From positions 1 to 22,029 of the IMG/VR virus record IMGVR_UViG_3300025117_000241: a stretch of DNA of 22,029 nucleotides, one strand, 5' to 3'. This DNA comes from a virus. The translations under genes and the position numbers were made by a program. The notes beneath the pieces were generated by a model, which saw only the letters and a list, made by a program, of their open reading frames with translations, was not told the origin of the DNA and did not search any database. This document shows, piece by piece, positions 1 through 15,309 of this stretch; the stretch's first letter is position 1, and each line of letters opens with the position of its first letter.

Positions 1-1
1 G

Positions 2-682
2 TACGCACGACCGGCGGGCATGATCTACGATGCCTTTGACGAGGAAGCCTGTGTTATTCCACCTCGTGAAATTCCCGGTGACTGGACACTCTACATTGGT
101 GTAGACTTCGGCGGTGTTCACATGGCCGCATTGTTCATAGCCGAAGACCCGGCCACTGGCGATCTTTACTACTTCAATGAATACCTCATGGGGGGCAAGT
201 CTATCAAACAGCACGCGGAGAACTTTCGCAAGATCGTAGGCAACCGGCCTCTATTGTGGGTAGGCGGTGCGAGGCCGGAGGAGCAATGGCGACAGGAATT
301 TCAAGAGGCGGGCATACCCATGAGCGCGCCGCCGATCAATGATGTAGAAGTAGGCATTGCGCGTGTCTACGCCTATCACAAGCAGAATAAGATATTCGTG
401 TTCAACACACTCAAGAAGTACCTTGACGAAAAAGGCTCATACGCACGCAAATTAGACGAACACAACAACCCGATTGAGGATATTGAGGACAAGCATTCGT
501 ATCACATGATGGACGCAGAACGTGTCATCGTAAGCGCGATCTTCAATATGCGAAACCGTGTGGACGCAAGCATATTACCTTTGCTGGCGGAGGCTAATAG
601 AAGCCGTTGGGATGGAGGACGCCTATGGTCGAACCTCAGCACACACCGCGAAAGTCGCTGGCAGAGAGGCGGAAGGTACTAA
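2..682 (+). CDS. Terminase large subunit, C-terminal nuclease part (5' truncated by the window edge)
   Basis: The frame is open from the first bases, so the ATP-hydrolysing N-terminal motor domain lies outside the window. What remains is the RuvC/RNase H-like nuclease domain that cuts concatemeric DNA during head filling. Early in the fragment is the pattern PAGMIYDAFDE, then the beta strand YIGVDFGG, whose Asp is the usual first metal ligand. Near the end HSYHMMDAERVIV fits the last acidic nuclease motif (Asp in MMDAER). The final residues are Arg/Trp-rich, a common terminase tail. The next gene overlaps it on the same strand and the portal follows, the normal order. An internal Met at 20 is not the real start. 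The family is clear; which packaging type (cos or pac) cannot be told. Confidence 0.9.
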   Translation, partial: YARPAGMIYDAFDEEACVIPPREIPGDWTLYIGVDFGGVHMAALFIAEDPATGDLYYFNEYLMGGKSIKQHAENFRKIVGNRPLLWVGGARPEEQWRQEFQEAGIPMSAPPINDVEVGIARVYAYHKQNKIFVFNTLKKYLDEKGSYARKLDEHNNPIEDIEDKHSYHMMDAERVIVSAIFNMRNRVDASILPLLAEANRSRWDGGRLWSNLSTHRESRWQRGGRY

Positions 683-906
683 TGCACTGGCTGTTAGAGC
701 AACACCTTGCTCACTCCCAATACGGGTTCGTCGAGTGGCGCGAGTGCGAAAGTTGCCATAACCCGTATACTACTTGGCGGTCTAGCATTGAGCATATTTG
801 TTTGACTTGTCAAGAACGAGAACAACGGAAGAAACAACGAGGTGAGTCATTTGCCTCCCGCATACGACGGGAACTAGAACTCATCTGGAAGTTATGCGGG
901 AGATAA
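625..906 (+). CDS. Small zinc-knuckle protein, unknown function
   Basis: This is a basic protein of about 93 residues between terminase and portal. It carries ECESCHNPYTTW followed by HICLTCQERE, two CxxC pairs about 20 residues apart that probably bind one zinc ion. A basic helical tail with many Lys, Arg and Glu follows. Three in-frame starts exist (607, 625, 682). I chose 625 because GGAGG at 614-618 sits six bases upstream. The start at 682 overlaps the terminase stop (TAATG) and has GGAAGG at 671-676, so it is a real alternative. Small Zn-finger proteins beside terminase can be HNH remnants or DNA-binding packaging helpers, but no HNH catalytic motif is visible here. Confidence 0.7.
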   Translation: MVEPQHTPRKSLAERRKVLMHWLLEQHLAHSQYGFVEWRECESCHNPYTTWRSSIEHICLTCQEREQRKKQRGESFASRIRRELELIWKLCGR

Positions 907-909
907 CCA

Positions 910-2562
910 ATGCGTAAGAACAACCGCCAACCGGCCATACTCGAAGCACTAGACAAAGGGGGCGATCCCCCTATCATCGCACAGGACTTTAGCGTAACGC
1001 CAAGTTACGTTTACCGACTCGACAAACAAAGGCGCAACCGCAAGCGCAGCGCGGATATAATGGCTGATGGCATTCCCGGCGCGCCTATCATCAAACCAAT
1101 AGGCGACTTGTTCACACAACGCTCGGTCTCCGCGCTTATTCGACACGGTGGGGATGTAGCCGAAGACTACTTGCGCGAGTTGAACGGCTATCGCGCTGTT
1201 CAACTGTATAAGGAGATGGGAAATAACCCTATCGTTGCGGCAACGCTCTCGGCTATGAAGATGACCTTGCGCCGTGTCAAGTGGTTTGCCGTTTCCGAGA
1301 ACGACAAACAAAGCACGGAAGCAAAAGACTTCCTCGATCAATGTATGCACGATATGTCTCTCTCGTGGTCGGACTTCATTGATCAGGGTATGAGCATGTT
1401 GCAATACGGCTTCGCACCATTTGAGTCAGTGTACAAGATACGCCGAGGGCCGGGACTACGACCGGGGCCTCGCACGCCTCGCTCGCGCTATTCCGATGGG
1501 CGTATCGGGTGGAAGAAGTTTGCCTTCATCGGCCAGGATACACTCGCGCAGGGCAATGCGTGGATATTTGATGAGAAGGACGGATCACTCAGAGGACTCA
1601 ACCAGCGGCCTCCCATCGGCGGCACGTTTATCTCGCAGTCGGTTATCCCCATACCTATTGAGAAGATGATACTCTTTCGCACGACAACGGAGCGTGACAA
1701 CCCCGAGGGAAGGTCAGTACTTCGCGCAATGTATTCGTCGTGGTATTATGCCAAAAACCTAGAGGAAATTGAGGCCATCGCCACCGAGCGCATGGGCGCT
1801 GGTTTCCCCACATTCTACTTAGGCGATGATGTAAGCAAGGGAAACACTTCAGACGCGGAGATACAAGAATACCGTCGCATGGGCCGCAACATTCGCATTG
1901 ACGAGCAAATGAGCCTCGTCATCCCTCACAAGAAGATGGGTACGGGCAACTCACAGAACGATAACGGCGTGCTGTTCGAGTTTACTGCACCGCCAATGAG
2001 AAGCGCGGTAGACTTCGGTGCTATTATCCAACGACACGAAAAGCGTATGGCGATGGTTGGCCTAGCGCAATTCATACACTTGGGGATGGATCAACAAGGA
2101 TCGCAAGCATTGGCGACCGTCACAACCGACTTTTTTCAACTAGCGGTTGCGGCATGGGCCGACTCGATCAAGGATACGATCAACCGCTTCCTCGTTGATC
2201 CTCTGTTCATGCTCAACCCTGAGTTTGGTGTAGAGGATCACCCCATTGTTGATCACTCCGACATCTCAACACCAGACTTGAAAGTTGTGGGTGACTACAT
2301 CAACAAAACGGTCGGCGCACAGGTGATCACACCTGATGACAAACTGGAAGAATCGGTGCGCCGTATTGCCGGTTTCCCGTCAAAGGATGAGGCATCAGAG
2401 AGACGTGTAATGAACGAGGTAACCGGTAGCGGTGGGCAAAGAGTGGCGCGAGGGGAGAAAGCCATACCCGCTGATGCTGTCAACCAACGTAACCAGAATC
2501 CAACAGCGGAGAAGCCTCAAGAGCCAGCGAAGCCTGAGGTGAAGAAGCCAGCGAGGGCATAG
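910..2562 (+). CDS. Phage portal protein, DUF935 (Mu gp29-like) family
   Basis: The portal is a dodecameric ring at one capsid vertex through which DNA enters and leaves and to which the tail adaptors bind. From about residue 60 the protein looks like the DUF935 portal family: IKPIGDLFTQRSVSAL, then YKEMGNNPIVAATLSAMKM, SWSDFIDQGMSMLQYGFAPF, a middle domain with SVLRAMYSSWYYAKNLEEIE, and a Pro/Lys/Glu-rich C-terminus. Its 550 residues are usual for the family. GGGAG at 898-902 lies seven bases before ATG 910. The first 50 residues are extra and look like a helix-turn-helix (IIAQDFSVTPSYVYRLDKQ). A second in-frame ATG at 1060 would give a portal without it, but has no good ribosome site. Confidence 0.9.
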   Translation: MRKNNRQPAILEALDKGGDPPIIAQDFSVTPSYVYRLDKQRRNRKRSADIMADGIPGAPIIKPIGDLFTQRSVSALIRHGGDVAEDYLRELNGYRAVQLYKEMGNNPIVAATLSAMKMTLRRVKWFAVSENDKQSTEAKDFLDQCMHDMSLSWSDFIDQGMSMLQYGFAPFESVYKIRRGPGLRPGPRTPRSRYSDGRIGWKKFAFIGQDTLAQGNAWIFDEKDGSLRGLNQRPPIGGTFISQSVIPIPIEKMILFRTTTERDNPEGRSVLRAMYSSWYYAKNLEEIEAIATERMGAGFPTFYLGDDVSKGNTSDAEIQEYRRMGRNIRIDEQMSLVIPHKKMGTGNSQNDNGVLFEFTAPPMRSAVDFGAIIQRHEKRMAMVGLAQFIHLGMDQQGSQALATVTTDFFQLAVAAWADSIKDTINRFLVDPLFMLNPEFGVEDHPIVDHSDISTPDLKVVGDYINKTVGAQVITPDDKLEESVRRIAGFPSKDEASERRVMNEVTGSGGQRVARGEKAIPADAVNQRNQNPTAEKPQEPAKPEVKKPARA

Positions 2563-2565
2563 AAT

Positions 2566-2946
2566 ATGGCCGACAACGTGCTAATTTTCAACATCACCGA
2601 TAATGATGGTGTTATCTCAACCATCGGTCAACAGATGGTCAACCTCGCCGCGTCCGGTTACAAGGTTGAGGCCACATTCTTTGTAAACAACCCCGTCACG
2701 GATAAGATCAAGTTTCCCCCTCCTCCACCGCCTTCGCCTACAACCATTGGCAAGTGTCGCATTGGCGCGTCCAATGTGAAGATACGAAAAGTGCCAGCCG
2801 GGGAAGAGATCGGGCTGACACTTGCGGGCAAGGAGTTCGCCTTCTTCGAGAGACGCAGTTTTGGCACGGGTACATATCTGCGCTTAGGCGTGGATATGTG
2901 GATCGCGTCAAAGGCGGGTAGCGCGGTGCTGGCTACGGAGATTTAG
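2566..2946 (+). CDS. Small protein with proline linker and bacterial SH3-like domain
   Basis: The 126-residue protein has two parts. Residues 1-45 (VLIFNITDNDGVISTIGQQM) are a short alpha/beta segment that I do not recognise. A run of seven prolines interrupted by one serine then acts as a linker. From about residue 62 there is an SH3b-like beta fold: NVKIRKVPAGEEIGLTLAGK, TYLRLGVDMWIASKAG, with the typical 'vr..p..G..i....G' start and 'W(I/V)..' end. SH3b domains usually bind peptides or cell-wall material. It lies three bases after the portal stop, with GAGG a little upstream, so it is in the portal operon. It could be a virion accessory protein. Its last 14 bases overlap the end of the converging gene. 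Confidence 0.7.
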   Translation: MADNVLIFNITDNDGVISTIGQQMVNLAASGYKVEATFFVNNPVTDKIKFPPPPPPSPTTIGKCRIGASNVKIRKVPAGEEIGLTLAGKEFAFFERRSFGTGTYLRLGVDMWIASKAGSAVLATEI

Positions 2947-3220
2947 TCTCAAGCAATACGATAGGGTGATTCCATATCCCCTCAACGTATCTCCTTGCAG
3001 CGGCAAGGGATGGCATGGGATACCCTAGTTCAACGGTGACTTTTCGGACTGCCTTGATTAGGGAAATTTTCAAAAAACCCGCACGAGCCTCAGACAATGC
3101 GAGTTTATATACCCTTGATTGGAATTCCTGCGCTCTCCTCCCTATCCAAAGGAGAGGAGAATCATCTTTGCTAATTTCAATGGTCAAAATGTGTTTAAGT
3201 AGAAAGACGCGCAACCTCAT
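2933..3220 (-). CDS. Hypothetical small protein of the reverse island
   Basis: This is a 95-residue protein, last gene of the reverse-strand unit. ATG at 3220 has GGAGAGG seven bases upstream and overlaps the 3' end of the preceding (shifted) gene, a translational-coupling layout. The N-terminal half (LTIEISKDDSPLLWIGRR) may be a beta hairpin. The second half, LKISLIKAVRKVT followed by SLAAARRYVEG, is a helix-turn-helix pair that faintly recalls the C-terminal domain of ribosomal L7/L12. That likeness is weak and gives no function. A TTG at 3187 is an alternative start. Its stop runs 14 bases into the end of the SH3-like gene on the other strand; no terminator is visible between the two convergent units. 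Confidence 0.55.
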   Translation of the reverse strand: MRLRVFLLKHILTIEISKDDSPLLWIGRRAQEFQSRVYKLALSEARAGFLKISLIKAVRKVTVELGYPMPSLAAARRYVEGIWNHPIVLLETKSP

Positions 3221-3386
3221 CTCTTAACCTCTCCGCATCTCTGAGAATGTTAGCCGTGCGTATCTTGTTTAGTTCGGCCTGTCGTATGGCAAACTTCTCC
3301 TTATGTAAGTGCGATCCCAAGTATCTCCACTTGTCAGGGAATACCCGTCCAAAGATTCTCCCAACGACCAGCGAGTCTTAAGACTC
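3195..3386 (-). pseudogene. Displaced C-terminal part of the small gene starting at 3457 (-1 frame)
   Basis: In the frame next to the 3269-3457 gene, the stretch from the palindrome to TAA at 3195-3197 reads as convincing protein: DSLVVGRIFGRVFPDKW, then a charged amphipathic helix KFAIRQAELNKIRTA and RDAERLRDEVARLST. It has no usable start codon of its own near its beginning and follows a TAA. Joined to MTTYKPSNIDEFFSVVEKEL of the upstream frame by one base shift, it makes a coherent protein of about 87 residues whose end overlaps the next gene, as expected in a tight operon. A single missing base near 3378-3384, real or a sequencing error, explains it. No canonical slippery heptamer is present. 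Confidence 0.6.
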
Positions 3387-3457
3387 TCTGAATAAGCAAG
3401 TTCCTTCTCTACAACTGAGAAAAATTCGTCGATGTTGGACGGTTTGTAAGTTGTCAT
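3269..3457 (-). CDS. Small protein, N-terminal part genuine, C-terminus out of frame
   Basis: ATG at 3457 overlaps the TGA of the upstream gene (ATGA), so translation is very probably coupled. The first 27 residues (NIDEFFSVVEKELAYSESL) look like a true helical small phage protein. After the palindrome at 3373-3386 the reading (TRWSLGESLDGYSLTSGDTW) loses protein character and stops at 3269-3271, while the neighbouring frame takes over with good protein sequence down to 3195. As it stands the gene encodes 62 residues; the intact ancestor was probably about 87. The function is unknown. It belongs to the reverse-strand unit driven by the promoter at 3796-3824. Confidence 0.55.
   Translation of the reverse strand: MTTYKPSNIDEFFSVVEKELAYSESLKTRWSLGESLDGYSLTSGDTWDRTYIRRSLPYDRPN
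3373..3386. repeat. 14-bp perfect palindrome at the frameshift point
   Basis: GAGTCTTAAGACTC is its own reverse complement and contains the stop codon TAA of the second frame. It sits exactly where the coding frame of the small reverse gene changes. Restoring one G after CTTAAG would both repair the frame and destroy the palindrome, so the palindrome may be a by-product of the deletion. Confidence 0.7.
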
Positions 3458-3774
3458 TTGCCCTCGAACTCTCGCTTGAGATATTCAAACTGGCGACGAC
3501 GCTCCTCCCGATCCCCGGCATCTTTGACATCCCGTGCTTTGTCCATCTCCGCCTGGGTGATGATCCTCTCGCGCACAAGCGAGAAGCCAAACTCAACAGG
3601 CTGCAACGGCGTGGTCATAGAGATAAATGGAAGGCCAGTGTCCTCATCATCATACGCCTCAAGAAACACAAATGTATCATCGGTGAATTTGATGAGTACC
3701 TCTCCATGATCGCCCCATGCAATCACCGCAATTGTCTTGCCAACAGCATGACGAGGATTTGTAATTTGTTTCAT
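3454..3774 (-). CDS. Conserved-looking small acidic/basic protein, unknown function
   Basis: This is a 106-residue protein. Residues 1-45 form a beta-rich domain (VGKTIAVIAWGDHGEVLIKF, TDDTFVFLEAYDDED) of the 'lvGktI..v....g...i.FtDgt' kind that recurs in small phage proteins. The C-terminal half is a charged helix (AEMDKARDVKDAGDREERRR) ending in KREFEGK, probably a coiled coil. GGAGAA lies six bases before ATG 3774. A sigma70-type promoter at 3796-3824 puts the start of transcription about 14 bases before the gene. It is followed by an ATGA overlap to the next gene. I do not know its role; the position fits an accessory (moron-type) gene. Confidence 0.7.
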   Translation of the reverse strand: MKQITNPRHAVGKTIAVIAWGDHGEVLIKFTDDTFVFLEAYDDEDTGLPFISMTTPLQPVEFGFSLVRERIITQAEMDKARDVKDAGDREERRRQFEYLKREFEGK

Positions 3775-3795
3775 CTTCTGTTCTCCTTGGCCAGA

Positions 3796-3824
3796 ATACT
3801 ATCACATAAGCAGTGGCTTGTCAA
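3796..3824 (-). promoter_or_regulatory. Sigma70-type promoter for the 3774-2933 reverse unit
   Basis: Read on the minus strand: -35 TTGACA (3824-3819), a 17-bp spacer, -10 TAGTAT (3801-3796). Transcription would start near 3789, leaving a short leader that holds AAGGAGAA. It overlaps the last codons of the upstream gene. The upstream 19 bases (3818-3836) match those of the promoter at 4308-4336 at 18 positions. Confidence 0.7.
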
Positions 3825-4084
3825 GTGCCAATTTCCACCCTCTCCTGTTCCTCTACTCTGTCTTTGCAATAGGTGACTATCTCAAACCCACCACATAGAG
3901 AATACCTATGTAAGTGTTCTGTTCTTCCGTATAAAACACAGCGACACATCTTTCGGGTATACAGAAAGCCGTCGCATTTGGGACAGAATTGATAGAGATT
4001 GTATGGTGCGGGAACTCTCGGAGGTCTCAGACCGAGAAAGACTCGTATGATTTCAAGCACTTTTTTCCCCTTTCCATATATCAT
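3821..4084 (-). CDS. Small cysteine-rich, probably zinc-binding protein
   Basis: The core QFCPKCDGFLYTRKMCRC followed by HLHRYSLCGG has CxxC, CxC and a further Cys and His, enough to hold one or two zinc ions. The N-terminal part (KKVLEIIRVFLGLRPPRVP) is basic and hydrophobic and might touch membrane or nucleic acid. The tail is acidic (RVEEQERVEIGT). ATG 4084 lies inside the end of the previous gene and has GGAGAG too close to it. GTG 4060, eight bases into the overlap, has AAGGGG at a better distance, so the true start may be 4060. An upstream ATG at 4123 is unlikely. The Cys pattern does not match a family I can name. Confidence 0.55.
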   Translation of the reverse strand: MIYGKGKKVLEIIRVFLGLRPPRVPAPYNLYQFCPKCDGFLYTRKMCRCVLYGRTEHLHRYSLCGGFEIVTYCKDRVEEQERVEIGT

Positions 4085-4289
4085 ACTCTCCGACAGTATA
4101 TGCTTTACCCCCGCCACCCTCAACGATCTTATTTATTGACAAATCAACGACTTGCCACCAGTCTCGATCCTCATTCCTTCCAGCATTGCAAGCCTCTTTT
4201 AATGTCCCGTACCTTCCCAGAAAGTTCTCCCATCCAGGAAGGGGATAATAGGTCGAACCAGCAAACACAATAAAGTTTTTCTCTGACAT
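4053..4289 (-). CDS. Conserved small phage protein (Trp/Tyr-rich), unknown function
   Basis: The 78-residue protein MSEKNFIVFAGSTYYPLPGW, then GRYGTLKEACNAG and DWWQVVDLSINKIVEGG, matches a pattern I know from many small phage and bacterial proteins: 'fvVFaG..YYP.gGw.dF.g.f.tleeA...........WwhvvDl....iv'. Its role has not been established, as far as I know. GGGAG at 4302-4298 precedes ATG 4289 by eight bases. It is the first gene of the reverse island, directly behind a TTGACA promoter. Its 3' end overlaps the next gene. I am confident that it is a gene, but its function is unknown. Confidence 0.75.
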   Translation of the reverse strand: MSEKNFIVFAGSTYYPLPGWENFLGRYGTLKEACNAGRNEDRDWWQVVDLSINKIVEGGGGKAYTVGEYDIWKGEKSA

Positions 4290-4307
4290 GGAATTATCTC
4301 CCGATAT

Positions 4308-4336
4308 ATACTATTCCAAAAGCCACTATTTGTCAA
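4308..4336 (-). promoter_or_regulatory. Sigma70-type promoter for the first genes of the reverse island
   Basis: On the minus strand: -35 TTGACA (4336-4331), 17-bp spacer, -10 TAGTAT (4313-4308), so transcription starts near 4301. The leader is then only about 12 bases and begins inside the ribosome site. The -10 hexamer, spacing and upstream TGGCAC are the same as in the promoter at 3796-3824, which suggests duplication or one shared regulator. Confidence 0.7.
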
Positions 4337-4581
4337 GTGCCAGTTTCCCTCTCCCATCCCTCCACCCAACACGCGAAGATAGCAAAACGACCCCCACTTG
4401 GAGGGCCGTCTTGACTCCCTCACTTGAGGGGGTGTTGGGGGGTAACACCTATTATACTCAACTTGGGCCGTTGTACATTAGAAACTGGTGAGAACTTAGT
4501 GACGCACTGACTTTTCCCCTCCCTCTTGCATTATGTCAATTTGGTGGTAGACTATACTCTAGTAGTGTATGCACATCTTGT

Positions 4582-4621
4582 GTCCCGTCCTCGTCGGGTT
4601 GAGGCGGGACGCTTTTTGTTT
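4582..4621 (+). terminator. Intrinsic terminator or leader attenuator before the FmdB-like gene
   Basis: GTCCCG, a bulged T and CCTC (4582-4592) pair with GAGGCGGGAC (4601-4610) around the loop GTCGGGTT. GCTTTTTGTTT follows directly. This is a strong rho-independent terminator shape. It lies only 12 bases before the TTG start of the next gene, after the weak forward promoter boxes, so it may act as an attenuator on a leader and not as a plain gene end. Confidence 0.7.
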
Positions 4622-4633
4622 GCCGAGGTAACT

Positions 4634-4888
4634 TTGCCAAGATTCGACTTCAAATGTACAACCTGCGGTGGGACGTTCGAGAAAACCCTACCCTATTCAT
4701 CGGTGATCCGATCAAAATGTTCGGTGTGTGGTTCGAGCGATACCCACCGCTTGTTTACCAACCCGCCAAGTGTGGTTTATGCCACAACTGGCTTTCATCA
4801 TATCGACAGCGGTAAGCGGTTTGAATCACAACTCTCTCCCAAGGGTAAGCAAGTATGGGAAAAAGCCAAGCGTGACGTAGGAGTTTGA
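4634..4888 (+). CDS. FmdB-like zinc ribbon protein
   Basis: Starting at TTG 4634 the protein is MPRFDFKCTTCGGTFEKTLP with a second pair, SKCSVCGSSDTHRLF. This is the layout of the FmdB/CxxC_CxxC_SSSS family ('MP.Y.y.C..CG..fe......' then 'C..CG...'), four Cys for one zinc. The family's usual N-terminus fits this TTG exactly, and GAGG at 4625-4628 is five bases upstream. The rest (VVYATTGFHHIDSGKRF, then a charged helix ending RDVGV) is loosely helical. FmdB-type proteins are thought to be regulatory, but in phages the role is unknown. It overlaps nothing and is followed after one base by the protease gene, so both are probably one transcript controlled by the hairpin upstream. Confidence 0.75.
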   Translation: MPRFDFKCTTCGGTFEKTLPYSSVIRSKCSVCGSSDTHRLFTNPPSVVYATTGFHHIDSGKRFESQLSPKGKQVWEKAKRDVGV

Positions 4889-4889
4889 A

Positions 4890-6440
4890 GTGCCATACAA
4901 GATCGTTCAACAAGGTGATAAGCATTGTGTGGTCAAGTCTGCTGATGGCAAGAGCATGGGTTGTCACCCAACGCGAGATGAGGCTGTAAAGCACATGCAA
5001 GCGTTGTATGCTAACGAGGCCATGTCTTCTGAAGTTGTGTGGGTTGATCCGTTTGCCTACACTGCTGGCAAACCGTTTCGTATCTTTCCAGTTGGTATGT
5101 TCAAGCGTGGTGATCATACTATCGATCTCACTCCTGAACGCCTGGCGCAGATGAAGGCAAACTATGAGGCGCAACGACCCCGCTGGAAGATACCGATCTA
5201 TGCTGGTCATCCAACTGAGGCACAGCCCGATCCTCCCAAACTTGGCAACATTGCCAAGTTGGAGTTGCAGAGTGACGGTCTTTATGCTGTGCCAGAACTG
5301 ACAGACGAGGGAACAGGTCTCATCAACGATGGCAAATACCAGTATATCAGTCCTGGTGTGCTTTGGAAATTGTCGGGTGGCACAGTCTACACCGATGAGC
5401 AGGGGACTGAGCATGACAACGTGCTAGATCACATTGCCTTAACAAACCGCCCGTTCTTTGGCAACCAAACTTCCATCTTTAGTTCGGACGCGAACTTGAT
5501 GAAGGGTGGTGATGCAATGGTGGAAGACAACAAACTGACCACGCTTTTCAATATGTTCCGTGCCTTGTTTGCCGATGCCATGATGAAATGTCCGAAGTGC
5601 GAAGCGCAAATGAAACAGGGTGGCAAGTGTCCCGACTGTGGGTATCAAGACAAAAGCTTGGAGGGTATGGTTACTGATAATACGCCAGACACTTTCAAAG
5701 ACTACAACACCGAACAGCGCAGTGCAATGGCGAAAAGCGGAGCGGCAATGCCCGATGGTGCGTATCCCATTGCCGATGCCGCTGATCTACAAAACGCCAT
5801 TCATGCCATCGGACGTGGTAGCGCACCGCACGCCACTATCAAAGCACACATTATGAAGCGTGCCAAAACACTTGGAAAAACGGACATGCTTCCCGAAGAC
5901 TGGACAAAGAAAGGTGATGACAACATGAGCGACCCTATTATCAACGTTGAGGAATTCAACGCTCTCAAGCAGAAAGCCGAACAATTCGACGCACTCAAAG
6001 TGCAGGCGGACGGGTTTGCGGCCAGACTTGAGACAGAGAAGGCGCGTGCCGATACTCTCGCGGAGCAGTTTACCGTCGAACGCAAGGCGCGTGCCATTGA
6101 AGGCTTGAAAGTGCGTGCGGAGAAGTTCGCCATCGCGCTTCCCGTCAAGCCTGATGAGTACGCCGACAAGTTCTATGCGCTTGGTGAGCAGAATGCTGAA
6201 CTCGCCAAGTGGTTCATGGACAAGTTCGATGCACTCAACACTGTTCTCGCGCAGTCAGCGGTTTTCACGCAACTCTCGCGTGACAATGCGGCTAACACCG
6301 ACGAAACCATTGAAACTCTCGCCACTAAGATCGTGACCGAGAAGTTCTCTGGCAACATGCAGAAATATGGCGAGGCTCTTGTCGAGGCCGGTAAGCAACG
6401 ACCCGACTTGGCCGAAGCCTATGCCAACCTGAGCCAGTAA
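4890..6440 (+). CDS. Capsid maturation protease fused to scaffold (Mu I/Z-like)
   Basis: Start is GTG 4890, with AGGAG (4879-4883) six bases before. Order of parts: residues 1-43, a small phage domain (HCVVKSADGKSMGCHPTRDE); about 48-205, a protease-like domain with PVGMFKRGDHTIDLTPERLA, IPIYAGHPTEA (His107) and YQYISPGVLW (Ser154), resembling Mu gpI-type head proteases; about 232-256, a zinc ribbon (CPKCEAQMKQGGKCPDC); about 268-340, a small helical domain (EQRSAMAKSGAAMPDGAYPI, NAIHAIGRG, IKAHIMKRAKTLG) similar to DUF6582-type phage domains; 346-516, a coiled-coil scaffold (FNALKQKAEQFDALKVQADG). The protease should cut scaffold and itself after shell assembly. The His/Ser catalytic roles are inferred from position. 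The zinc ribbon and helical domain between protease and scaffold are unusual. Confidence 0.82.
   Translation: MPYKIVQQGDKHCVVKSADGKSMGCHPTRDEAVKHMQALYANEAMSSEVVWVDPFAYTAGKPFRIFPVGMFKRGDHTIDLTPERLAQMKANYEAQRPRWKIPIYAGHPTEAQPDPPKLGNIAKLELQSDGLYAVPELTDEGTGLINDGKYQYISPGVLWKLSGGTVYTDEQGTEHDNVLDHIALTNRPFFGNQTSIFSSDANLMKGGDAMVEDNKLTTLFNMFRALFADAMMKCPKCEAQMKQGGKCPDCGYQDKSLEGMVTDNTPDTFKDYNTEQRSAMAKSGAAMPDGAYPIADAADLQNAIHAIGRGSAPHATIKAHIMKRAKTLGKTDMLPEDWTKKGDDNMSDPIINVEEFNALKQKAEQFDALKVQADGFAARLETEKARADTLAEQFTVERKARAIEGLKVRAEKFAIALPVKPDEYADKFYALGEQNAELAKWFMDKFDALNTVLAQSAVFTQLSRDNAANTDETIETLATKIVTEKFSGNMQKYGEALVEAGKQRPDLAEAYANLSQ
5925..6440 (+). CDS. Possible nested scaffold protein made from an internal start
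   Basis: Inside the protease gene and in the same frame, ATG 5925 begins MSDPIINVEEFNALKQ and has AAGGTG (5911-5916) eight bases upstream. It would give a 171-residue free scaffold, all coiled coil plus a small C-terminal domain, like protein Z made inside gene I of Mu or Nu3 inside lambda C. The start falls exactly at the domain border. That the scaffold part exists is clear; that it is also made alone is inference. Confidence 0.45.
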   Translation: MSDPIINVEEFNALKQKAEQFDALKVQADGFAARLETEKARADTLAEQFTVERKARAIEGLKVRAEKFAIALPVKPDEYADKFYALGEQNAELAKWFMDKFDALNTVLAQSAVFTQLSRDNAANTDETIETLATKIVTEKFSGNMQKYGEALVEAGKQRPDLAEAYANLSQ

Positions 6441-6453
6441 GGAGTGATGAAAA

Positions 6454-6921
6454 ATGGCTAACTATCGTGATCTCGGAATTGCAGATGCGCCATTTGTCGC
6501 GGGAGAGGACTTCTCTTCTTGCGGTCTGTGGCAAGCGGTTGCGCCTGGTTCGGCTGCGGGTGAAGTGATCCTTGCCGTTGGGCCATCGGGCAACCCCTGG
6601 CCGATTGGTGTGTTGCAGAACAATCCCTGCTCCAGCCAAGAAGCCGAAGTGCGTGTCCTCGGCTTTACCAAGATGAAGTGTCGTGCCAACGCTTGTGGTC
6701 TAGCATTTGGTCGCTGGCTGATCTGTGCCTCGGACGGTGTGGGTGAGCCTCTCCTGACTGAAGCAACGGCAGCTGTGTCTGGTTACTCACACGGCGGCTC
6801 GCCAGTCTTCGCTCGCTACATGGACAGCGGAACGGTTGCGGCAGGGGGCGGCTCGGTTATCGCACAAGTTCAAATCTTCCCGAAGATTGAAGGCGCGTGC
6901 GGTCAGATGAGTGCGTCATAA
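6454..6921 (+). CDS. Capsid decoration/stabilising protein (DUF2190-like)
   Basis: This is a 155-residue protein rich in Gly, Ala and Ser, with small beta-strand patterns: VAGEDFSSCGLWQAVAPGSA, EVILAVGPSGNPWPIGVLQN, EVRVLGFTKMKCRANACG, ALARYMDSG-like end segment and VIAQVQIFP. It sits between scaffold and major capsid protein, where decoration (cement) proteins of gpD/DUF2190 type are found. 'G..iGvl.n....g....vrv.G..kv.a' is the typical repeat of such proteins. GGAG 6441-6444 precedes ATG 6454 by nine bases. Five Cys are notable for a virion protein. Such proteins bind the three-fold sites of the shell and strengthen it after expansion. The assignment rests on position and pattern. Confidence 0.7.
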   Translation: MANYRDLGIADAPFVAGEDFSSCGLWQAVAPGSAAGEVILAVGPSGNPWPIGVLQNNPCSSQEAEVRVLGFTKMKCRANACGLAFGRWLICASDGVGEPLLTEATAAVSGYSHGGSPVFARYMDSGTVAAGGGSVIAQVQIFPKIEGACGQMSAS

Positions 6922-8014: not shown

Positions 8015-8833
8015 ATGCCTGCTGAAAGACAACGACTTCTGTGGCGGTTCATAGGCGGACTTCGCTCTGGAAACGCTACGAACTACACTCAACTTGCCAG
8101 TGACGGAACGCTGACCCAAGTTGACGCCTCAGCCCTCCTAGGCGCAAGCGATAACGGCACGACCTTCAACGCCAGCGGCTATCAGCGCATTGCGAAGAAG
8201 GCGCGTGTGCTTCGTGACATCTGGATACCGGCGGCGAACTTTGATGTGCCGCTTGGCCCGGCCTCAGGTGCGGGTGTGGGCGCGAGTGGCGCATGTGGGG
8301 CGGGATCGCTCTTCGCCTCGTGTGTGCTGTTTAACATCACCGGCTCAGTCTTTGGTGGAACGGTTGGCTCACCTGCTATTACCGCACTCAACATGGGTGT
8401 TGGCGGATCGCCGGCCTCGCCTCTCAGTGCAATGGCTACGATCACCAAGCCGACCGATGCTGACACATCGGGTAGTATCATCGCCTACGTGGACTGGACG
8501 ACCGGGCAAACTCCCGCCACGACTGGCTCGAAGGTCAGCATGATCGTTGGCTTGGGCTTCCTTGGCACGGGTAGTTCCATTCGCACGGCGGCCTCGGCGG
8601 GTGTACCTATTGGTACAGCCTCGTACAGTGGAACGTCATGCGGTCTGTTCCAAACAACTTGTGTGGGCAAACTGCCGTCGTTCACCGCCAATGACCAACT
8701 TGGCTTTGTAGTTTTGCAACTTGGCGCATCGGCCGGCGGAGATAGCGGTAAACTCTCGACCGCCTGTGTGTTCGTGCTCGGTATGCGCCTGCGCTATGTA
8801 GCCTGTGCGCTTGGTGCGCAGTCTACTGAGTAA
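8015..8833 (+). CDS. Probable virion protein, head-associated, unknown family
   Basis: This is a 272-residue protein, very rich in Gly, Ala, Ser and Thr, with nine Cys. The N-terminus (ERQRLLWRFIGGLRSGNATN) is basic and hydrophobic. The rest looks like a beta sandwich: DNGTTFNASGYQRIAKKARV, VLRDIWIPAANFDVPLGP, FNITGSVFGGTVGSPAITAL, GSKVSMIVGLGFLGTGSSIR, ANDQLGFVVLQLGAS. It is not enzyme-like. Position straight after the major capsid gene, behind a structured leader, and its composition suggest a second decoration protein or head fibre base. GTGAG or AAGGA upstream may act as ribosome site, though the spacing is poor. I do not recognise the family. Confidence 0.7.
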   Translation: MPAERQRLLWRFIGGLRSGNATNYTQLASDGTLTQVDASALLGASDNGTTFNASGYQRIAKKARVLRDIWIPAANFDVPLGPASGAGVGASGACGAGSLFASCVLFNITGSVFGGTVGSPAITALNMGVGGSPASPLSAMATITKPTDADTSGSIIAYVDWTTGQTPATTGSKVSMIVGLGFLGTGSSIRTAASAGVPIGTASYSGTSCGLFQTTCVGKLPSFTANDQLGFVVLQLGASAGGDSGKLSTACVFVLGMRLRYVACALGAQSTE

Positions 8834-8846
8834 CCACTTGAACAAT

Positions 8847-8880
8847 TGAGGGTGATTAACCTACAGGTTAGTCACCCTCA
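8847..8880 (+). promoter_or_regulatory. Intercistronic hairpin 1
   Basis: TGAGGGTGA (8847-8855) pairs perfectly with TCACCCTCA (8872-8880). After a TT/AG internal loop, AACC pairs with GGTT around TACA. The following bases are CCTACATACG, so there is no U-run. It is more likely an mRNA stability or processing element than a terminator. Confidence 0.6.
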
Positions 8881-8886
8881 CCTACA

Positions 8887-8928
8887 TACGGGCATAACCG
8901 CGAGAGTCCCTCTCTCGTTCTCCCCGTA
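8887..8928 (+). promoter_or_regulatory. Intercistronic hairpin 2
   Basis: TACGGG (8887-8892) pairs with CCCGTA (8923-8928). Inside it CGAGAG (8901-8906) pairs with CTCTCG (8912-8917) around TCCCT. It ends a few bases before the GGAG ribosome site (8935-8938) of the next gene, directly beside hairpin 1. Confidence 0.5.
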
Positions 8929-8946
8929 GAGATTGGAGTAATAGTT

Positions 8947-9309
8947 ATGCGTACCTACGCTCAAGCCCCCAAAACCGTTTGGGACATTGATTACGCGACT
9001 GCGGCAGCGGCTAGTCTTCCTGCCGCTAGTTCTGTTCATAGCGGTTCTTTTGCCTCCATTGGATACTCTCGCCTGACCGGAGTTGTCTATTCGGATGCCT
9101 CCATGTCTGGTGTGTGTGGTATCAGAGTGCGGCAATCCTCAACCTCTACCCCCAATTGGGATTACGAGTCCAACTTTGCGCTATCAGCGTGTAGCGGTTC
9201 TGCATTCAGCGTAGAGGTTATCGGTCGCTATGTGGACATCCAACTGTTCTCAGGTGCGACATGCGCGGCCTCTATCCTTCGTTCTTTCTGGGCATTGCGT
9301 CCTATCTAA
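8947..9309 (+). CDS. Small beta-rich protein, probable virion component
   Basis: This is a 120-residue protein: YAQAPKTVWDIDYATAAAAS, SFASIGYSRLTGVVYSDASM, GVCGIRVRQSSTSTPNWDYE, FSVEVIGRYVDIQLFSGATC. Alternating hydrophobic and small polar residues suggest a jelly-roll-like or receptor-binding beta fold. 'R..G.Y.diql....' resembles small beta-sandwich modules in phage fibre and metagenomic virion proteins, but I cannot name a family. GGAG lies eight bases before ATG 8947. It is preceded by two hairpins and followed after six bases by the next gene. A role on the capsid surface is inferred from position only. Confidence 0.65.
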   Translation: MRTYAQAPKTVWDIDYATAAAASLPAASSVHSGSFASIGYSRLTGVVYSDASMSGVCGIRVRQSSTSTPNWDYESNFALSACSGSAFSVEVIGRYVDIQLFSGATCAASILRSFWALRPI

Positions 9310-9315
9310 GATAAT

Positions 9316-9519
9316 ATGATCAAAATTGCTAATACACCAAATAAAGATGGCAATATCTTGCAGGCGTGGTTGCCCGATCATCCTCGCCTGAACGCAGATG
9401 GTATACCAGGGCGCGGGCCGTACTTTGGCAATTTGAACCTGGACACACTGGAGTTAGTATTGCTGGATGACGAGCTTGAGATAGAGAAAACAGTCAATAC
9501 ACAATTGACTACGGAGTAG
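9316..9519 (+). CDS. Small hypothetical protein
   Basis: The 67-residue protein MIKIANTPNKDGNILQAWLP, then HPRLNADGIPGRGPYFGNLN and LELVLLDDELEIEKTV, ends seven bases before the fibre gene. It is acidic, with no membrane segment or Cys. The ribosome site is weak (AAGATAAT). It could be a small chaperone or spacer protein for the fibre encoded next, but nothing in the sequence proves this. Gene status is supported by tight packing between its neighbours and normal amino-acid make-up. Confidence 0.55.
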   Translation: MIKIANTPNKDGNILQAWLPDHPRLNADGIPGRGPYFGNLNLDTLELVLLDDELEIEKTVNTQLTTE

Positions 9520-9526
9520 ATCAATC

Positions 9527-10831
9527 ATGGGCACAAAACTTACAGCACTCACCGAAGTTGCCGATCCCGCCTCTACAGACATCTTATACATCGTAACCGA
9601 TCCTGGGGGTACACCAGTTTCCAAGAAGGTTACGGTAGCCAACTTGCTCGCGGGAGAGACCGTTACCGGCAGTTTGACGCTGACTGGTGATTTAGGTGTC
9701 AATGGTGGTGATATTACTTCGACCGCGACGACCTTCAACTTGCTCAACGCGACCGTTACCACCCTGAACATCGGCGGAGCGGCAACCGCTATCGCTCTCG
9801 GCGCGGCTTCGACCGTTCTCACGCTCGGATCGAACGCGAGGATCAACGGCGGCGCGGCGGCCAACGACGACTTGACGTTGCAGGGGACGAGCCACGCCAC
9901 GCGCACGACGAGTTACATCATCCTGCAACCCAACGGCGGCAACGTCGGCATCGGGACGACGTTGCCGGGAAGCGTCGCTCCTGGTACAGCTTCACCTGCT
10001 TACAACGCTGGTAAAGTATTGGAAATAGGCGGTTCTGACTCTACTGACCCTGGTTTGTTCTTGAGAGATGCGGGTACAGGAGCGACGGGTCTTGACATGT
10101 GGCTTGATACCACTGGGGCGCACGGATATTTTGACAGCCGTCTTGATAGTGCAACCATTAGAAGTTTCAATTTCAGAACACGAACAGTGGGAACTCCCAT
10201 AAATGCGTTGACTATTTTAGGTAGCGGCAACGTCGGCATCGGGACAACGTTGCCGGGTGGTGGTACGACTGTTGGCACGGCTGTATTGTCACTCGCCAAT
10301 GGCACCACGCCGGTTGGCGGAGTTGCCAATCAAGTGTCGCTCTACAGCGCGGATGTGGCGGCCAGCGCGGAATTGTTCGCGCTTGACGAGGCCGGCAACA
10401 CGCCGCAATTGACACCGCACCCGACCGACTTTCTGAATACGTTGCCTCTTGAGGGCCGTGAATATCCCTGGGCTTATCGTTCGACGAACTGCTATCTGGG
10501 CCAGCAGATTGACGTGGATATGATGGGCGCAATCCGTGAGATAGAGAAGTTGAGCGGCAAGCAATTCATTTACCTCCTCGACCTACCGCCCGAGACGAGA
10601 TCGGATTGGGATACGGAGCAAGAGGCTCGGCGAATAGAGCGTGAGACGGCGATTGCGACGGCCGGGGCTCTCGTGGTTAGCCTGGATGAGCGGATTTCCG
10701 CTGAAATGGATCCCGCGAGGAAGACGGAACTGGTTCGGGAGCGCAATGAGGTGAAGATTCCGTCAATGTATCAGAAGAAAGCACTGCCACAGTGGTTGAA
10801 AGATCGCGGTGCGAAGAGCCTGATACAGTAA
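9527..10831 (+). CDS. Fibre/spike-like protein with repeated 'GNVGIGTT' modules
   Basis: The 434 residues fall into three parts. Residues 1-50: a short head (KLTALTEVADPASTDILYIV) found at the N-terminus of several phage fibre proteins. About 50-280: beta-strand repeats (SLTLTGDLGVNGGDI, TTLNIGGAATAIALGAASTV) with two copies of GNVGIGTTLPG, the kind of sequence found in trimeric beta-helical fibres. About 285-434: ASAELFALDEAGNTPQLTPH, EYPWAYRSTNCYLGQQIDVD and a long charged helical tail (RIERETAIATAG, PARKTELVRERNEVK). The expected S74 self-cleaving chaperone domain is not visible at the end. Being in the head module, it may be a head fibre, not a tail fibre. Its codons are GC-richer than those of its neighbours. 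Confidence 0.7.
   Translation: MGTKLTALTEVADPASTDILYIVTDPGGTPVSKKVTVANLLAGETVTGSLTLTGDLGVNGGDITSTATTFNLLNATVTTLNIGGAATAIALGAASTVLTLGSNARINGGAAANDDLTLQGTSHATRTTSYIILQPNGGNVGIGTTLPGSVAPGTASPAYNAGKVLEIGGSDSTDPGLFLRDAGTGATGLDMWLDTTGAHGYFDSRLDSATIRSFNFRTRTVGTPINALTILGSGNVGIGTTLPGGGTTVGTAVLSLANGTTPVGGVANQVSLYSADVAASAELFALDEAGNTPQLTPHPTDFLNTLPLEGREYPWAYRSTNCYLGQQIDVDMMGAIREIEKLSGKQFIYLLDLPPETRSDWDTEQEARRIERETAIATAGALVVSLDERISAEMDPARKTELVRERNEVKIPSMYQKKALPQWLKDRGAKSLIQ
9938..9969 (+). repeat. 32-bp direct repeat, copy 1 (hairpin-forming)
   Basis: It encodes GNVGIGTTLPG. The DNA differs from copy 2 at only one of 32 positions. GGCAACGTCG and CGACGTTGCC at its ends are perfect 10-bp inverted repeats around nine bases. 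Confidence 0.85.
10226..10257 (+). repeat. 32-bp direct repeat, copy 2
   Basis: This is a near-identical copy of 9938-9969 (A instead of G in the right arm), 288 bases downstream and in the same reading frame. Identity at third codon positions, when the flanks do not match, points to recent duplication or gene conversion. Confidence 0.85.
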
Positions 10832-12014: not shown

Positions 12015-12539
12015 CTATTCTATCCATTGGTATCCTAGTAGGATGTTGCTTGCTTGAGATTTCTTGATACCGAATTTGTCTGCTAATTCTTGCTTGGTAT
12101 ATTTTCCAGTGGAAAACAGTTGTCGCATCTCTCTTACTTTTTCCCAAGTCATAATAGAACGACCATTGTTTTCACCAGTATTGTCCCTATCGAATATACC
12201 AAATACTTTCCCTAGTTCGTGACGTGCGTGAAGCGTGTTTCTTGAACGGGTAACACACTCAAGGTTAGATAAACGGTTATCAGACTTGATACCGTTCTTG
12301 TGATTTATCTCATAGTCATTTGGAATTTCTTGACCAGAAGCCAGCCAGATAAATCTGTGTGCTAGAATAGAATGATTTCTGGCGGAAAGATTGCAGTATC
12401 CGTTACCTTGTTTAGAACGCATTTCTCTATGTTTACCAGAGAGATATGAGAAGATTTTTCCAGTATCAAAGTCTATCTCAAACAAGCTATTATGATAGAG
12501 AGCGAGGAAGACTTGTTCACTTTCCCATCTGCGTTTCAT
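12015..12539 (-). CDS. HNH homing endonuclease with C-terminal HTH
   Basis: The central part reads ILAHRFIWLASGQEIPNDYE, INHKNGIKSDNRLSNLECVT, RSRNTLHA: the HNH motif with H of 'HRFIW', 'INHKNG' and final N/H, zinc or magnesium dependent. The C-terminus KYTKQELADKFGIKKSQASN is a HTH DNA-binding module usual in such free-standing endonucleases. I place the start at ATG 12539 (MKRRWESEQVFLALYHNSLF) and not at 12578, because AGAAGGGA is seven bases upstream and the -10 box lies between the two ATGs. It gives 174 residues. It stands alone on the reverse strand inside the late operon, seven bases from the adaptor stop, a typical selfish insertion. Such enzymes cut an empty allele and are copied into it by repair. 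Confidence 0.88.
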   Translation of the reverse strand: MKRRWESEQVFLALYHNSLFEIDFDTGKIFSYLSGKHREMRSKQGNGYCNLSARNHSILAHRFIWLASGQEIPNDYEINHKNGIKSDNRLSNLECVTRSRNTLHARHELGKVFGIFDRDNTGENNGRSIMTWEKVREMRQLFSTGKYTKQELADKFGIKKSQASNILLGYQWIE

Positions 12540-12560
12540 GGAGGAGTCCCTTCTCCACTC

Positions 12561-12589
12561 ATTATAAGACAGTTTCATTGGACTGTCAA
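12561..12589 (-). promoter_or_regulatory. Perfect consensus sigma70 promoter of the HNH gene
   Basis: On the minus strand: TTGACA (12589-12584), 17-bp spacer, TATAAT (12566-12561), a full match to the sigma70 consensus. Start of transcription is expected near 12554, leaving a leader of about 15 bases with the AGAAGGGA site. This rules out the upstream ATG at 12578 as the main start. Confidence 0.85.
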
Positions 12590-12610: not shown

Positions 12611-12685
12611 ATGGCAGTTCCTACTCGTGGCACACACATCACATATTTATATGCTGATAGCGACGCAGAATGGAACTGCTCTTGA
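12611..12685 (+). pseudogene. Displaced N-terminus of the glycosyltransferase-like gene
   Basis: ATG 12611 follows a very G-rich ribosome site (GGGGGGTGAT ends nine or fewer bases away). It encodes MAVPTRGTHITYLYADSDAE then WNCS before TGA at 12683. The segment 'ITYLYADSDAEWNCS' looks like the first beta strand of a glycosyltransferase, and the next frame continues at once with TEWRAKIPSDSLN. A -1 shift, or removal of a five-base TGACT, joins them into one protein. So the intact gene probably started here. Confidence 0.6.
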
Positions 12686-13935
12686 CTGAATGGCGAGCAA
12701 AAATACCCTCTGACAGTCTGAACGCCGAGCACGAGGCTGGTCGCACGCCTCACACGGCACAGTTGGTTTATCTTCCAACCGCGCTAGACTTCAACCACCC
12801 CAAGGTTCATCAGATACTTGGGAAGGCAGATGTGCTGGTATTCCAGCGTAACGCGCTTAGCCCCGATGTATGGGCCGCGATGGACTATTGGCGCACGCTT
12901 GGTAAAATTGTAACCTTGGACGCCGACGATCATTATTATTGCCTGCCGCCCAGCAACCCGGCGTGGGCTTATTGGATTGCTAACAAGGGCAATATGCCAA
13001 TGTATCCTCCTGACGCACTGATGGAGGGACTGAGGCATGTGGACGCTTTCACATCACCGAGCAAGGTGATGATCAAAGATGTAGAGCATATTGCTCCCGG
13101 CTTCTGGCTACCGAACTGGCCTCGGCGCATGTGGTATGAGAAGTGTGTGCCGAAGCCGTTAGGCTCGCCTGACATTGCGTTCTCGTACTCTGCCGATCCT
13201 CAAAACGCACAGCAGATGTTATTCAACGGGCAGTTTCGTGAGGGAAGTGAGGAGTGGATCGTACTCGGTTGGGGTGGTTCAATTAGCCATGTGGATAGTT
13301 GGGTGTACAGTGGGGCTATTGAGGCATTGGACGTGATGTTCGAGAAGTATCCCAACTTGCGCCTGAAGTTCTGCGGGTATGAGCAACGGTTGGACTATCT
13401 ACTCAACCGATGGGGAGACAGAGTTATTCGACAGATAGGCGTCAAGCCTGAGCATTGGCCATTCGTTGTGAGTACGTTTGACATTGGCCTTGCTCCTTTG
13501 GATATGCGCGTTGTTCCTAGCAACACGGGAAAAGAAGGCGAGACGATGTGGGAGGGTGGCACATACTCCTACGATGAACGACGCTCGTGGCTCAAGGGAA
13601 TAGAGTATATGGCCGCTGGCGTTCCCTGGCTGGCGACTCGTAGCACAACGTATGAAGGCATTGCGCGACATGGTACAATGGTCGAGAACGCAATGGATGA
13701 TCCGAAAGTGAGGACTGAGAATTGGACGAAAGCACTAGACTCGGCGATACAGAACCTACCCGCACGCAAGATACTGGCGATGGAAAAGAAGAAGTGGGCA
13801 TTACGCAAAATGTGCATGGAGGCGAGGGTGAACGAGTACGTCGAGACCTACGAGAGGATCGGCAACCTCAAGCAGACGAGACGCGGAACACTGCCGGGGG
13901 TGTTCTGGCACAAGCCGGTAGTGGCGACAGCATAA
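12670..13935 (+). CDS. GT-B glycosyltransferase-like protein (GT4 type)
   Basis: The 421 residues include KADVLVFQRNALSPDVWAAM, GKIVTLDADDHYYCLPPSNP, HVDAFTSPSKVMIKDVEHIA, then the second Rossmann domain: EWIVLGWGGSISHVDSW, LRLKFCGYEQRLDYLLN, FDIGLAPLDMR and SWLKGIEYMAAGVPWLATRS. The last part matches the 'K..EymAaGvP.la' sugar-nucleotide site of GT4 enzymes (the usual Glu-rich motif is GIEYMAAG here). It probably moves a sugar from a nucleotide donor onto an unknown acceptor, perhaps a virion protein or phage DNA. ATG 12670 has no good ribosome site and the true N-terminus seems to lie in another frame from 12611. It follows the homing endonuclease and precedes a second carbohydrate enzyme. 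Confidence 0.75.
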   Translation: MELLLTEWRAKIPSDSLNAEHEAGRTPHTAQLVYLPTALDFNHPKVHQILGKADVLVFQRNALSPDVWAAMDYWRTLGKIVTLDADDHYYCLPPSNPAWAYWIANKGNMPMYPPDALMEGLRHVDAFTSPSKVMIKDVEHIAPGFWLPNWPRRMWYEKCVPKPLGSPDIAFSYSADPQNAQQMLFNGQFREGSEEWIVLGWGGSISHVDSWVYSGAIEALDVMFEKYPNLRLKFCGYEQRLDYLLNRWGDRVIRQIGVKPEHWPFVVSTFDIGLAPLDMRVVPSNTGKEGETMWEGGTYSYDERRSWLKGIEYMAAGVPWLATRSTTYEGIARHGTMVENAMDDPKVRTENWTKALDSAIQNLPARKILAMEKKKWALRKMCMEARVNEYVETYERIGNLKQTRRGTLPGVFWHKPVVATA

Positions 13936-13976: not shown

Positions 13977-14084
13977 ATGAAACTTGAGTACAGCGGGGTA
14001 GACTTCGGCAAGTGCATGGAATACGATGTGCTACAGGTTGTCAACCGAACAGTGGTGAAACAGAAGAATGAGCGAGAACAATAG
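13977..14084 (+). CDS. Very small protein between the two carbohydrate enzymes
   Basis: MKLEYSGVDFGKCMEYDVLQ, then VVNRTVVKQK, stops at 14084 and overlaps the next start by 17 bases. In-frame sequence upstream of the ATG (ITDPASYIARNWYRG) still reads as good protein back to about 13932, so the true start may be a non-ATG codon inside the end of the glycosyltransferase gene (for example CTG near 13905). The ribosome site for 13977 is weak. The pattern looks genuine but no family is recognised. Confidence 0.45.
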   Translation: MKLEYSGVDFGKCMEYDVLQVVNRTVVKQKNEREQ

Positions 14085-15309
14085 CCAACGTCCCACCCTG
14101 CTTATGCTCGGTGGTCACACCCTACAACCGTTGTGGCAACCGCTAAGTGATACCTACGATATTTGTATGGTACACCCTCAGTCATCGGCGCTGATGACCG
14201 AGATGGGTATACAAGGTGCGTTTGGCATACAGAAGTATCTCAACGCTGAGATACAAGAGGAAGCAACGAACATCGCCTATCGCATTGCGACAAAGGTACA
14301 CCAACAGTCGGCTTCATTAGTGTCAGTTATACACGAAGCCTTTGGCGAGAGCGTACCCGACAATTTTGCGCCAGACAAAGTGGCCGACTGGTTTCCCGCG
14401 ATGGTTGGCGAGCACGTGCGACAAGAGGCATTGATTCTCAACATGCTTGATGCGCTGAAGAACGATAGGCATATATCTGGTTGTGTGGTGCATGAGGATG
14501 TGACACCTGATGCGCGAGCGGTTGTGCTCTGGTGCAAGGTAAAAGGTATTCCAACAGTGCATGTGCCACATGCCAATTGCTTTTACATCGGTGAGGAGTG
14601 GGATATACACACTGAGAGCATATCGGACTGCATTGCGGCAGCAGGTGAATACATGTATGAGTTCTATGTCAAGTGGGGATACCCATCTGAGCGAGTGCGG
14701 GTGTGCGGTCAGCCACAACTAGATTCATGGTATGGACTCAACCCTCCATCTCGCACCGAGTCTAGGCGAGTGCTAGGCATAGACGATGGCACATTCTTGC
14801 TGGTGTACGCAACCTCGTGGGGACAACTCACCTCCGCTAGAGGCGACTTTGACGCAGAGTATGAGAACTCATTGCGCGAGGTTATTGAAACAACCAAAGA
14901 ACTAGGTGCAACACTGTGCATAAAGATGCACCCTAGCGAAATGCAGAACCAAGAGCAGGTTTACTTGGAGGCCATGAAAAACAATGGCGTGACGGGGTTT
15001 GTCACGCGCCAGTTCAATGAGTATGTGCTGAGGGCGGCAAACGCTCTTGTGGCACATGGGCCAAGCAACATTTGTGTTCAGGCCGCGATACTTGGCTTGC
15101 CAAGTTGTTATCTGCCAACGGAGGGGTTTGAGTTTCCGCGTCCCGGCCCAGTGATGAGCATGATGTCACTCACTCATGCTGTGCGTATATCCCAAATGCT
15201 GGACAAGGGTAAAACTTGGGATATATTCGTGCGACAGATGAATGCCAGTCATGATGTTGGCAACGGTGCGGAACGTGTTGCAGAGTTTGTGCGAGAGGTA
15301 TGCCAGTAA
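14068..15309 (+). CDS. GT-B fold carbohydrate enzyme, CDP-glycerol transferase/epimerase-like
   Basis: The 413 residues show the two-domain GT-B layout. N-terminal: TLLMLGGHTLQPLWQPLSDT, a helical middle, CVVHEDVTPDARAVVLWCKV, IPTVHVPHANCFYIGEEWDI, SISDCIAAAGEYMYEFYVKW, GYPSERVRVCGQPQLDSWY. C-terminal: FLLVYATSWGQLTSARGDF, ATLCIKMHPSEMQNQEQVYL, NALVAHGPSNICVQAAILGL, PSCYLPTEG. 'K.HPsE' and 'vahgpSn...eA...glP..yl' match CDP-glycerol glycerophosphotransferase and polysaccharide synthesis/UDP-GlcNAc 2-epimerase-like enzymes. It probably acts with the preceding glycosyltransferase. Substrate and acceptor cannot be told. It ends overlapping the tail completion gene, so it is in the same late transcript. 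Confidence 0.7.
   Translation: MSENNSQRPTLLMLGGHTLQPLWQPLSDTYDICMVHPQSSALMTEMGIQGAFGIQKYLNAEIQEEATNIAYRIATKVHQQSASLVSVIHEAFGESVPDNFAPDKVADWFPAMVGEHVRQEALILNMLDALKNDRHISGCVVHEDVTPDARAVVLWCKVKGIPTVHVPHANCFYIGEEWDIHTESISDCIAAAGEYMYEFYVKWGYPSERVRVCGQPQLDSWYGLNPPSRTESRRVLGIDDGTFLLVYATSWGQLTSARGDFDAEYENSLREVIETTKELGATLCIKMHPSEMQNQEQVYLEAMKNNGVTGFVTRQFNEYVLRAANALVAHGPSNICVQAAILGLPSCYLPTEGFEFPRPGPVMSMMSLTHAVRISQMLDKGKTWDIFVRQMNASHDVGNGAERVAEFVREVCQ

Follow-up and report, generated by a model that had tools for sequence, protein, structure and literature searches.

Among the described systems closest to the locus reported here, the Mu-like Pseudomonas phage JBD26 encodes Tab, an 83-aa moron product whose gene is located on the minus strand inside the late operon and has its own promoter; tab is a single gene placed between the terminase genes, with an anti-Tab partner on the plus strand (PMC10884400). 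Mu-like Pseudomonas phages contain plasticity regions, in which variable small ORFs of 34–100 codons are located between core genes, and also a low-GC accessory region (region G), in which anti-CRISPR genes are found (PMC4378225). In the prophage ST64B, a moron is encoded antisense and has a promoter of its own (PMC7067206).

The present locus is contained in a 22-kb virus record of IMG/VR (IMGVR_UViG_3300025117_000241), positions 1–22,029 of which constitute the window, i.e. the whole stretch of 22,029 nucleotides analysed. The portal protein and the protease encoded in the window match the Pfam families Portal_Mu (E 4e-31) and Mu-like_Pro (E 8.5e-10), respectively, and the head module is therefore regarded as Mu-like. 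This module is interrupted by a minus-strand island (2933–4289) consisting of five to six ORFs (Table 1). Like JBD26 tab, the island represents small minus-strand genes with their own promoters within the late operon of a Mu-like phage, but it contains multiple genes and is not located between terminase genes. It shares with the plasticity regions of Mu-like Pseudomonas phages the Mu-like head genes, small ORFs, low GC content, and a majority of products without a family, whereas the cassette here is inverted and equipped with a duplicated promoter module and a structured RNA. Unlike in region G, no anti-CRISPR or Aca-like product was recognised in the island.

Table 1. Positions of island features and adjoining elements in the window
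Feature	Position	Strand	Remarks
Gene A, 78 aa	4053..4289	-	phrog_1411 family; coding signal +15.8
Gene B	3821..4084	-	87 aa from ATG 4084, or 79 aa from GTG 4060
Gene C, 106 aa	3454..3774	-	Highest coding signal, +27.1; without confident family
ORF D, 62 aa	3269..3457	-	Start overlaps stop of C (ATGA)
ORF D2, 41 aa	3195..3320	-	TTG 3320 start behind GGAG Shine–Dalgarno sequence
Gene E, 95 aa	2933..3220	-	Frame favoured in most windows of 3230–2980
Promoter P_A, TTGACA-N17-TAGTAT	4308..4336	-	Within GAGAGGG-N10-TTGACA
Promoter P_C, TTGACA-N17-TAGTAT	3796..3824	-	Within GAGAGGG-N13-TTGACA; direct repeat of P_A module
Possible -10 (TATAAT) for structured element	4451..4456	-	Without good -35 (AATGTA at 17 nt); weak
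Structured noncoding element, candidate leader RNA or small RNA	4360..4450, core 4446–4378	-	Conservation and fold
Terminator-like hairpin, conserved loop GTCGGG	4576..4625	+	Right border of inserted region

A preceding sequence-only reading had described the island as five tightly packed genes between portal and protease. All the minus-strand ORFs and the overlaps quoted for them are indeed present: either start of B falls within A, the ATGA at 3457–3454 is common to C and D, and the start of E falls within the frame 3320–3195. The stop codon of B is the TGA within the -35 of P_C, and the 3' end of E overlaps a convergent 126-aa ORF (2566–2946) by 14 nt. As for the location, the head module is interrupted as claimed, but the direct neighbours of the island are the 126-aa ORF and an FmdB-like Zn-ribbon ORF rather than portal and protease. 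The unit reaches upstream to ~4450, taking in the structured noncoding element, and on the left side of the island, near 2933, no terminator was recognised, with a hairpin followed by UUUU present upstream of A. The GC content of the island (0.457) is below that of most flanking head genes (0.52–0.53 in the adjacent ones); values as low or lower were found in 15 of 207 windows, with the minimum at ~18.4–19.5 kb in the tape-measure region.

In a codon scan conducted frame by frame, the coding signal was strong for A and C and moderate for B, D, and E, that of B being in frame in parts only. The signal in the D frame fades at ~3390–3340, and the best-scoring frame at 3350–3190 is that of D2. Because the signal passes from one frame to the other at ~3340, the number of ORFs is five or six, and the count of five given in the sequence-only reading stands for the ORFs as such but may have to be raised by one. 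It is possible from the sequence that D and D2 are two overlapping genes (62 and 41 aa), one frameshifted gene, or the outcome of an assembly error.

The two near-identical promoters reported for the island were recovered as exact matches at 4336–4308 and 3824–3796. The 41-nt direct repeat that contains them is identical at 31 of 41 positions; among 300 random islands generated by a first-order Markov model (Markov-1), none reached this value, the best 41-mer pair having 28 identities. Likewise, none of 500 random islands contained two promoters, defined by a perfect -35, a spacer of N17, and a -10 matching in at least four of six positions. The sequence GAGAGGG, 7–13 nt upstream of the -35, is common to the island promoters of the window and of its nearest relative, designated L005. 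A search of all IMG/VR for GAGAGGG-N5-15-TTGACA-N17-TAGKAT yielded nine stretches, of which three belong to this virus and L005, and no relation of the other six to this virus was detectable. The bare motif GGCACTTGACA-N17-TAGTAT was discarded as a family marker, as its 12 stretches in viral contigs are mostly from unrelated phages.

Comparison with relatives placed the island at a variable position. L005 (TerL, 88%; portal, 79%; 126-aa ORF, 73%; protease, 54%) is syntenic with the window in TerL, portal, 126-aa ORF, FmdB-like ORF, protease, a decoration-like protein, and the major capsid protein (MCP). Between its 126-aa and FmdB-like ORFs, L005 has a different minus-strand set without recognised homology to A–E, in the order of a 62-aa CxxC protein, a TTGACA-N17-TAGGAT promoter after GAGAGGG, a phrog_5444 gene (71-aa protein; E 3.6e-11) that recurs in jumbo phages, and a 58-aa ORF. 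In a second relative, L006 (portal, 61%), the interval has no island and contains a large repetitive ORF, more plus-strand ORFs, and an HNH gene. Three distant head modules from the Chloroflexota genome sample (L122–L124), arranged as portal-(gpF)-protease-MCP, also have no island. Thus, the genes flanking the island are in relatives either separated by other genes (L005) or found without an island (L006 and L122–L124); the support for gene exchange at the site comes from one relative, L005.

Of the island products, that of A, noted earlier as a member of a widespread Trp/Tyr-rich family, was assigned to phrog_1411 by PHROG profiles (E 1.6e-12), with the core FAGxxYYPxxG...W; F9, A10, G11, Y14, Y15, P16, G19, A33, and W44 are invariant in 12 sequences of the family. 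At a relaxed threshold, phrog_1411 is found in >700 phage records, mainly T4-like, and the member in Edwardsiella phage PEi26 is annotated as trna.3 and adjoins tRNA and ipI genes. The T4-like trna.3 product has the FAGxxYYPxxG...W core in common with A, but its gene stands beside tRNA and internal-protein genes, whereas A stands in a head operon. A literature search for trna.3 found nothing. In the AlphaFold2 (AF2) model, A is predicted to adopt a beta-beta-alpha-beta-beta arrangement (pLDDT 79); structural matches were limited to uncharacterised phage proteins, and a Foldseek search against the PDB gave zero matches. Small-gene clusters of T4-like phages, beside tRNAs and ipI, contain members of the families of A and of the L005 gene L005-k, and these families are also found repeatedly in jumbo phages.

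The Cys-rich product predicted earlier is that of B, with six Cys residues (CPKC...CRC...C...C) and no family match in Pfam, PHROGs, NCBIfam, or PADLOC. C gave only weak matches to PHROGs (E 0.012 and 0.021), and C and E gave weak or partial matches at best in annotated phages. The AF2 single-sequence model of E is all-helical (pLDDT 61), and the low-scoring resemblance of E to the ribosomal L7/L12 C-terminal domain (Pfam E 0.17), which has an alpha/beta fold, gained no support from this model of low confidence. None of A–E matched a profile of a helix-turn-helix (HTH) family, such as an Aca-type regulator, the all-helical model of E being of low confidence.

The moron layout claimed in the sequence-only reading held up, as the genes are inverted relative to the late operon, have their own sigma70-type promoters and a lower GC content, and are absent or different in relatives. 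The layout, the promoter repeat, the RNA fold, the differing island of L005, and the lack of one in L006 and in the three distant modules are directly seen in the sequences; from here on, we infer transcription, timing, the mechanism of exchange, and function. We consider that the island is a moron-type accessory locus at a plasticity site inside the Mu-like head module, with a probability of about 72%. In the proposed mechanism, host RNA polymerase with the main sigma factor would read the island leftward, independently of the rightward late operon, with P_A serving A–B and P_C serving C–E, and a possible third start would produce a structured leader RNA. This leader RNA and the promoter module would be the constant part, behind which genes may be exchanged between phages, presumably when recombination takes place at the conserved flanking sequences and at the repeated promoter module. 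The small proteins encoded would probably target the host or competing phages, singly and not as one machine, with takeover, counter-defence, and superinfection exclusion as candidate roles. By analogy, a role facing the host or competitors is the most likely one, because this is the kind of role established for morons in comparable positions and because the families of A and of the L005 gene recur among the small accessory genes of other phages. If this reading is true, a little-studied phage group, with Chloroflexota-assigned contigs among its TerL relatives, would have an accessory slot at this locus, and new takeover or counter-defence genes could be searched for behind the promoter module and the leader RNA.

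The island had also been proposed as an undescribed functional set. That its genes form a coherent system (defence, anti-defence, or toxin–antitoxin) moving as a unit is suggested by their close packing, the A–B and C–E translational overlaps, and the common promoters, all of which point to co-expression, but we regard this as quite unlikely in light of their distribution. The five genes were found together elsewhere only in a 32.4-kb IMG/VR contig (IMGVR_3300025087_000233); it was dismissed as an independent second copy, because its 100% identity to the window over 6166 bp (positions 1–6166) shows that it derives from the same virus, to which it adds 26 kb of sequence upstream of the window. 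When the proteins were searched individually in IMG/VR, the family of A was encoded at 15 further loci, none of which had detectable relatives of B–E, so that the genes were not seen to travel together. For C and E, IMG/VR gave no matches beyond the same virus, although scans by a single protein reach no further than close relatives and the group is thinly sampled, and in 400 sampled Chloroflexota genomes they gave weak, partial matches only. Furthermore, L005 carries different genes at the same site, against the idea of a fixed set, and PADLOC defence profiles gave zero matches for every island product. The claim of a functional set thus fails by the refuting condition that the sequence-only reading had itself named, and the gene set should not be taken as one system.

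Under the preferred reading of a moron-type accessory locus, the constant part would be represented by the element in the noncoding stretch between the FmdB-like ORF and P_A. It is conserved in L005 (6440–6561), with a local score of 488 for the aligned region 4640–4360, as compared with ≤309 in 500 shuffles. The minus-strand fold has z values of -4.2 in the window and -4.9 in L005, and the plus strand -2.3 and -1.6, respectively. The fold comprises a CCCUC-AAGU-GAGGG hairpin and a second, G+C-rich one of 12 bp with UUUU after it; the two hairpins are common to the window and L005, with 24 pairs kept and two pairs altered on both sides. The L005 counterpart of the possible -10 at the element is GATAAT. 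Rfam gave no relevant match, and an RNA model of the element matched the two source phages only, with no match in 98 other loci; matches of 20–24 bits in Chloroflexota genomes were judged to be at chance level and set aside. As judged from the sequence, three roles are possible for the element: a small RNA whose 3' end is a terminator, an attenuator, or a leader for antitermination. The put antitermination RNA of phage HK022 consists of two hairpins with one unpaired base between them. The candidate leader is similar, by description only, in being a short RNA of two hairpins at the start of an operon, but, unlike put, its second hairpin is followed by U residues in the manner of a terminator. 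The more specific proposal that the core (4446–4378) is a constant, hitherto undescribed cis-acting RNA controlling leftward transcription by antitermination or attenuation, with the GAGAGGG-TTGACA module receiving interchangeable anti-host or anti-phage genes, is at present unlikely.

Alternatively, the main product may be a leftward small or antisense RNA, comprising the element at 4446–4378 and transcripts antisense to the 3' end of the 126-aa ORF that continue in the direction of the portal gene, with the ORFs being secondary. No other noncoding part is as well conserved as the element, its minus-strand fold is significant in both phages, the island is convergent into a head-module gene, and an antisense RNA of BTP1 to structural genes excludes superinfecting phage (PMC7067206). 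Nevertheless, A and C have clear coding signals and good Shine–Dalgarno sites, A belongs to a conserved protein family, and the element is known from two phages only, which makes this alternative very unlikely.

To the right of the element, the GTCGGG-loop hairpin directly precedes the FmdB-like and protease genes in three phages, namely the window, L005 (6706–6755), and L006 (9132–9184), and in the latter two it is itself preceded by good rightward sigma70-type promoters; it is possible, from its placement, that the hairpin is an attenuator of the capsid operon. That the ORFs are chance occurrences and the whole interval a terminator or boundary, in which the minus-strand promoters merely insulate or tune the head genes, would fit this plus-strand hairpin, the rightward promoters, and the weaker coding signals of D, E, and B, but is highly improbable, given the homologues of A in many phages, the strong coding signal of C, the two perfect -35 promoters not reproduced in any random island, and the other genes present here in L005, one of them from a known phage family.

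Activity of the moron-type locus in lysogeny, also suggested previously, gained no support: in four records of the virus and its relatives, all of them fragments, searches for tyrosine and serine recombinases, DDE integrases, and resolvase or rve domains found nothing, and no integrase or repressor was found across the ~48 kb examined. A portal profile search of genome contigs gave zero matches. As to the host, some contigs among the TerL relatives are assigned to Caldilineae and Anaerolineae (Chloroflexota); a Chloroflexota-type host is plausible for the window phage on these sequence assignments.

Several other genes are found in the same virus and its relatives. An HNH endonuclease gene is inserted at 12015–12545 (-) of the window, with a perfect TTGACA-N17-TATAAT promoter at 12589, and the HNH gene of L006 (4230–4754, -) is a different one in a similar style. 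Two glycosyltransferase-like genes (12670–13935 and 14068–15309, +; Pfam matches below the cutoff) are located inside the structural region of the window, and glycosyltransferase-like genes are also found near the MCP gene in the L122 head module. In L122, a Phage Mu F-like protein (8582–10279, -) matches an intein splicing domain below the cutoff (E 2.8e-7), which suggests that this head protein contains an intein. Upstream of the window in the same virus (locus L023, G001 8000–27000), a run of sugar-metabolism genes is located on the late strand, including those for a CTP transferase (1076–2005), a TPP enzyme (4924–6531), a NeuB family protein (13098–13820), a class-III aminotransferase (sub-cutoff), and a Gfo/Idh oxidoreductase, resembling a phage-carried pathway of the nonulosonic-acid type. 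Amid these sugar genes, an RNA ligase (PF09414, E 4.6e-17) is encoded at 13992–14648 of L023.
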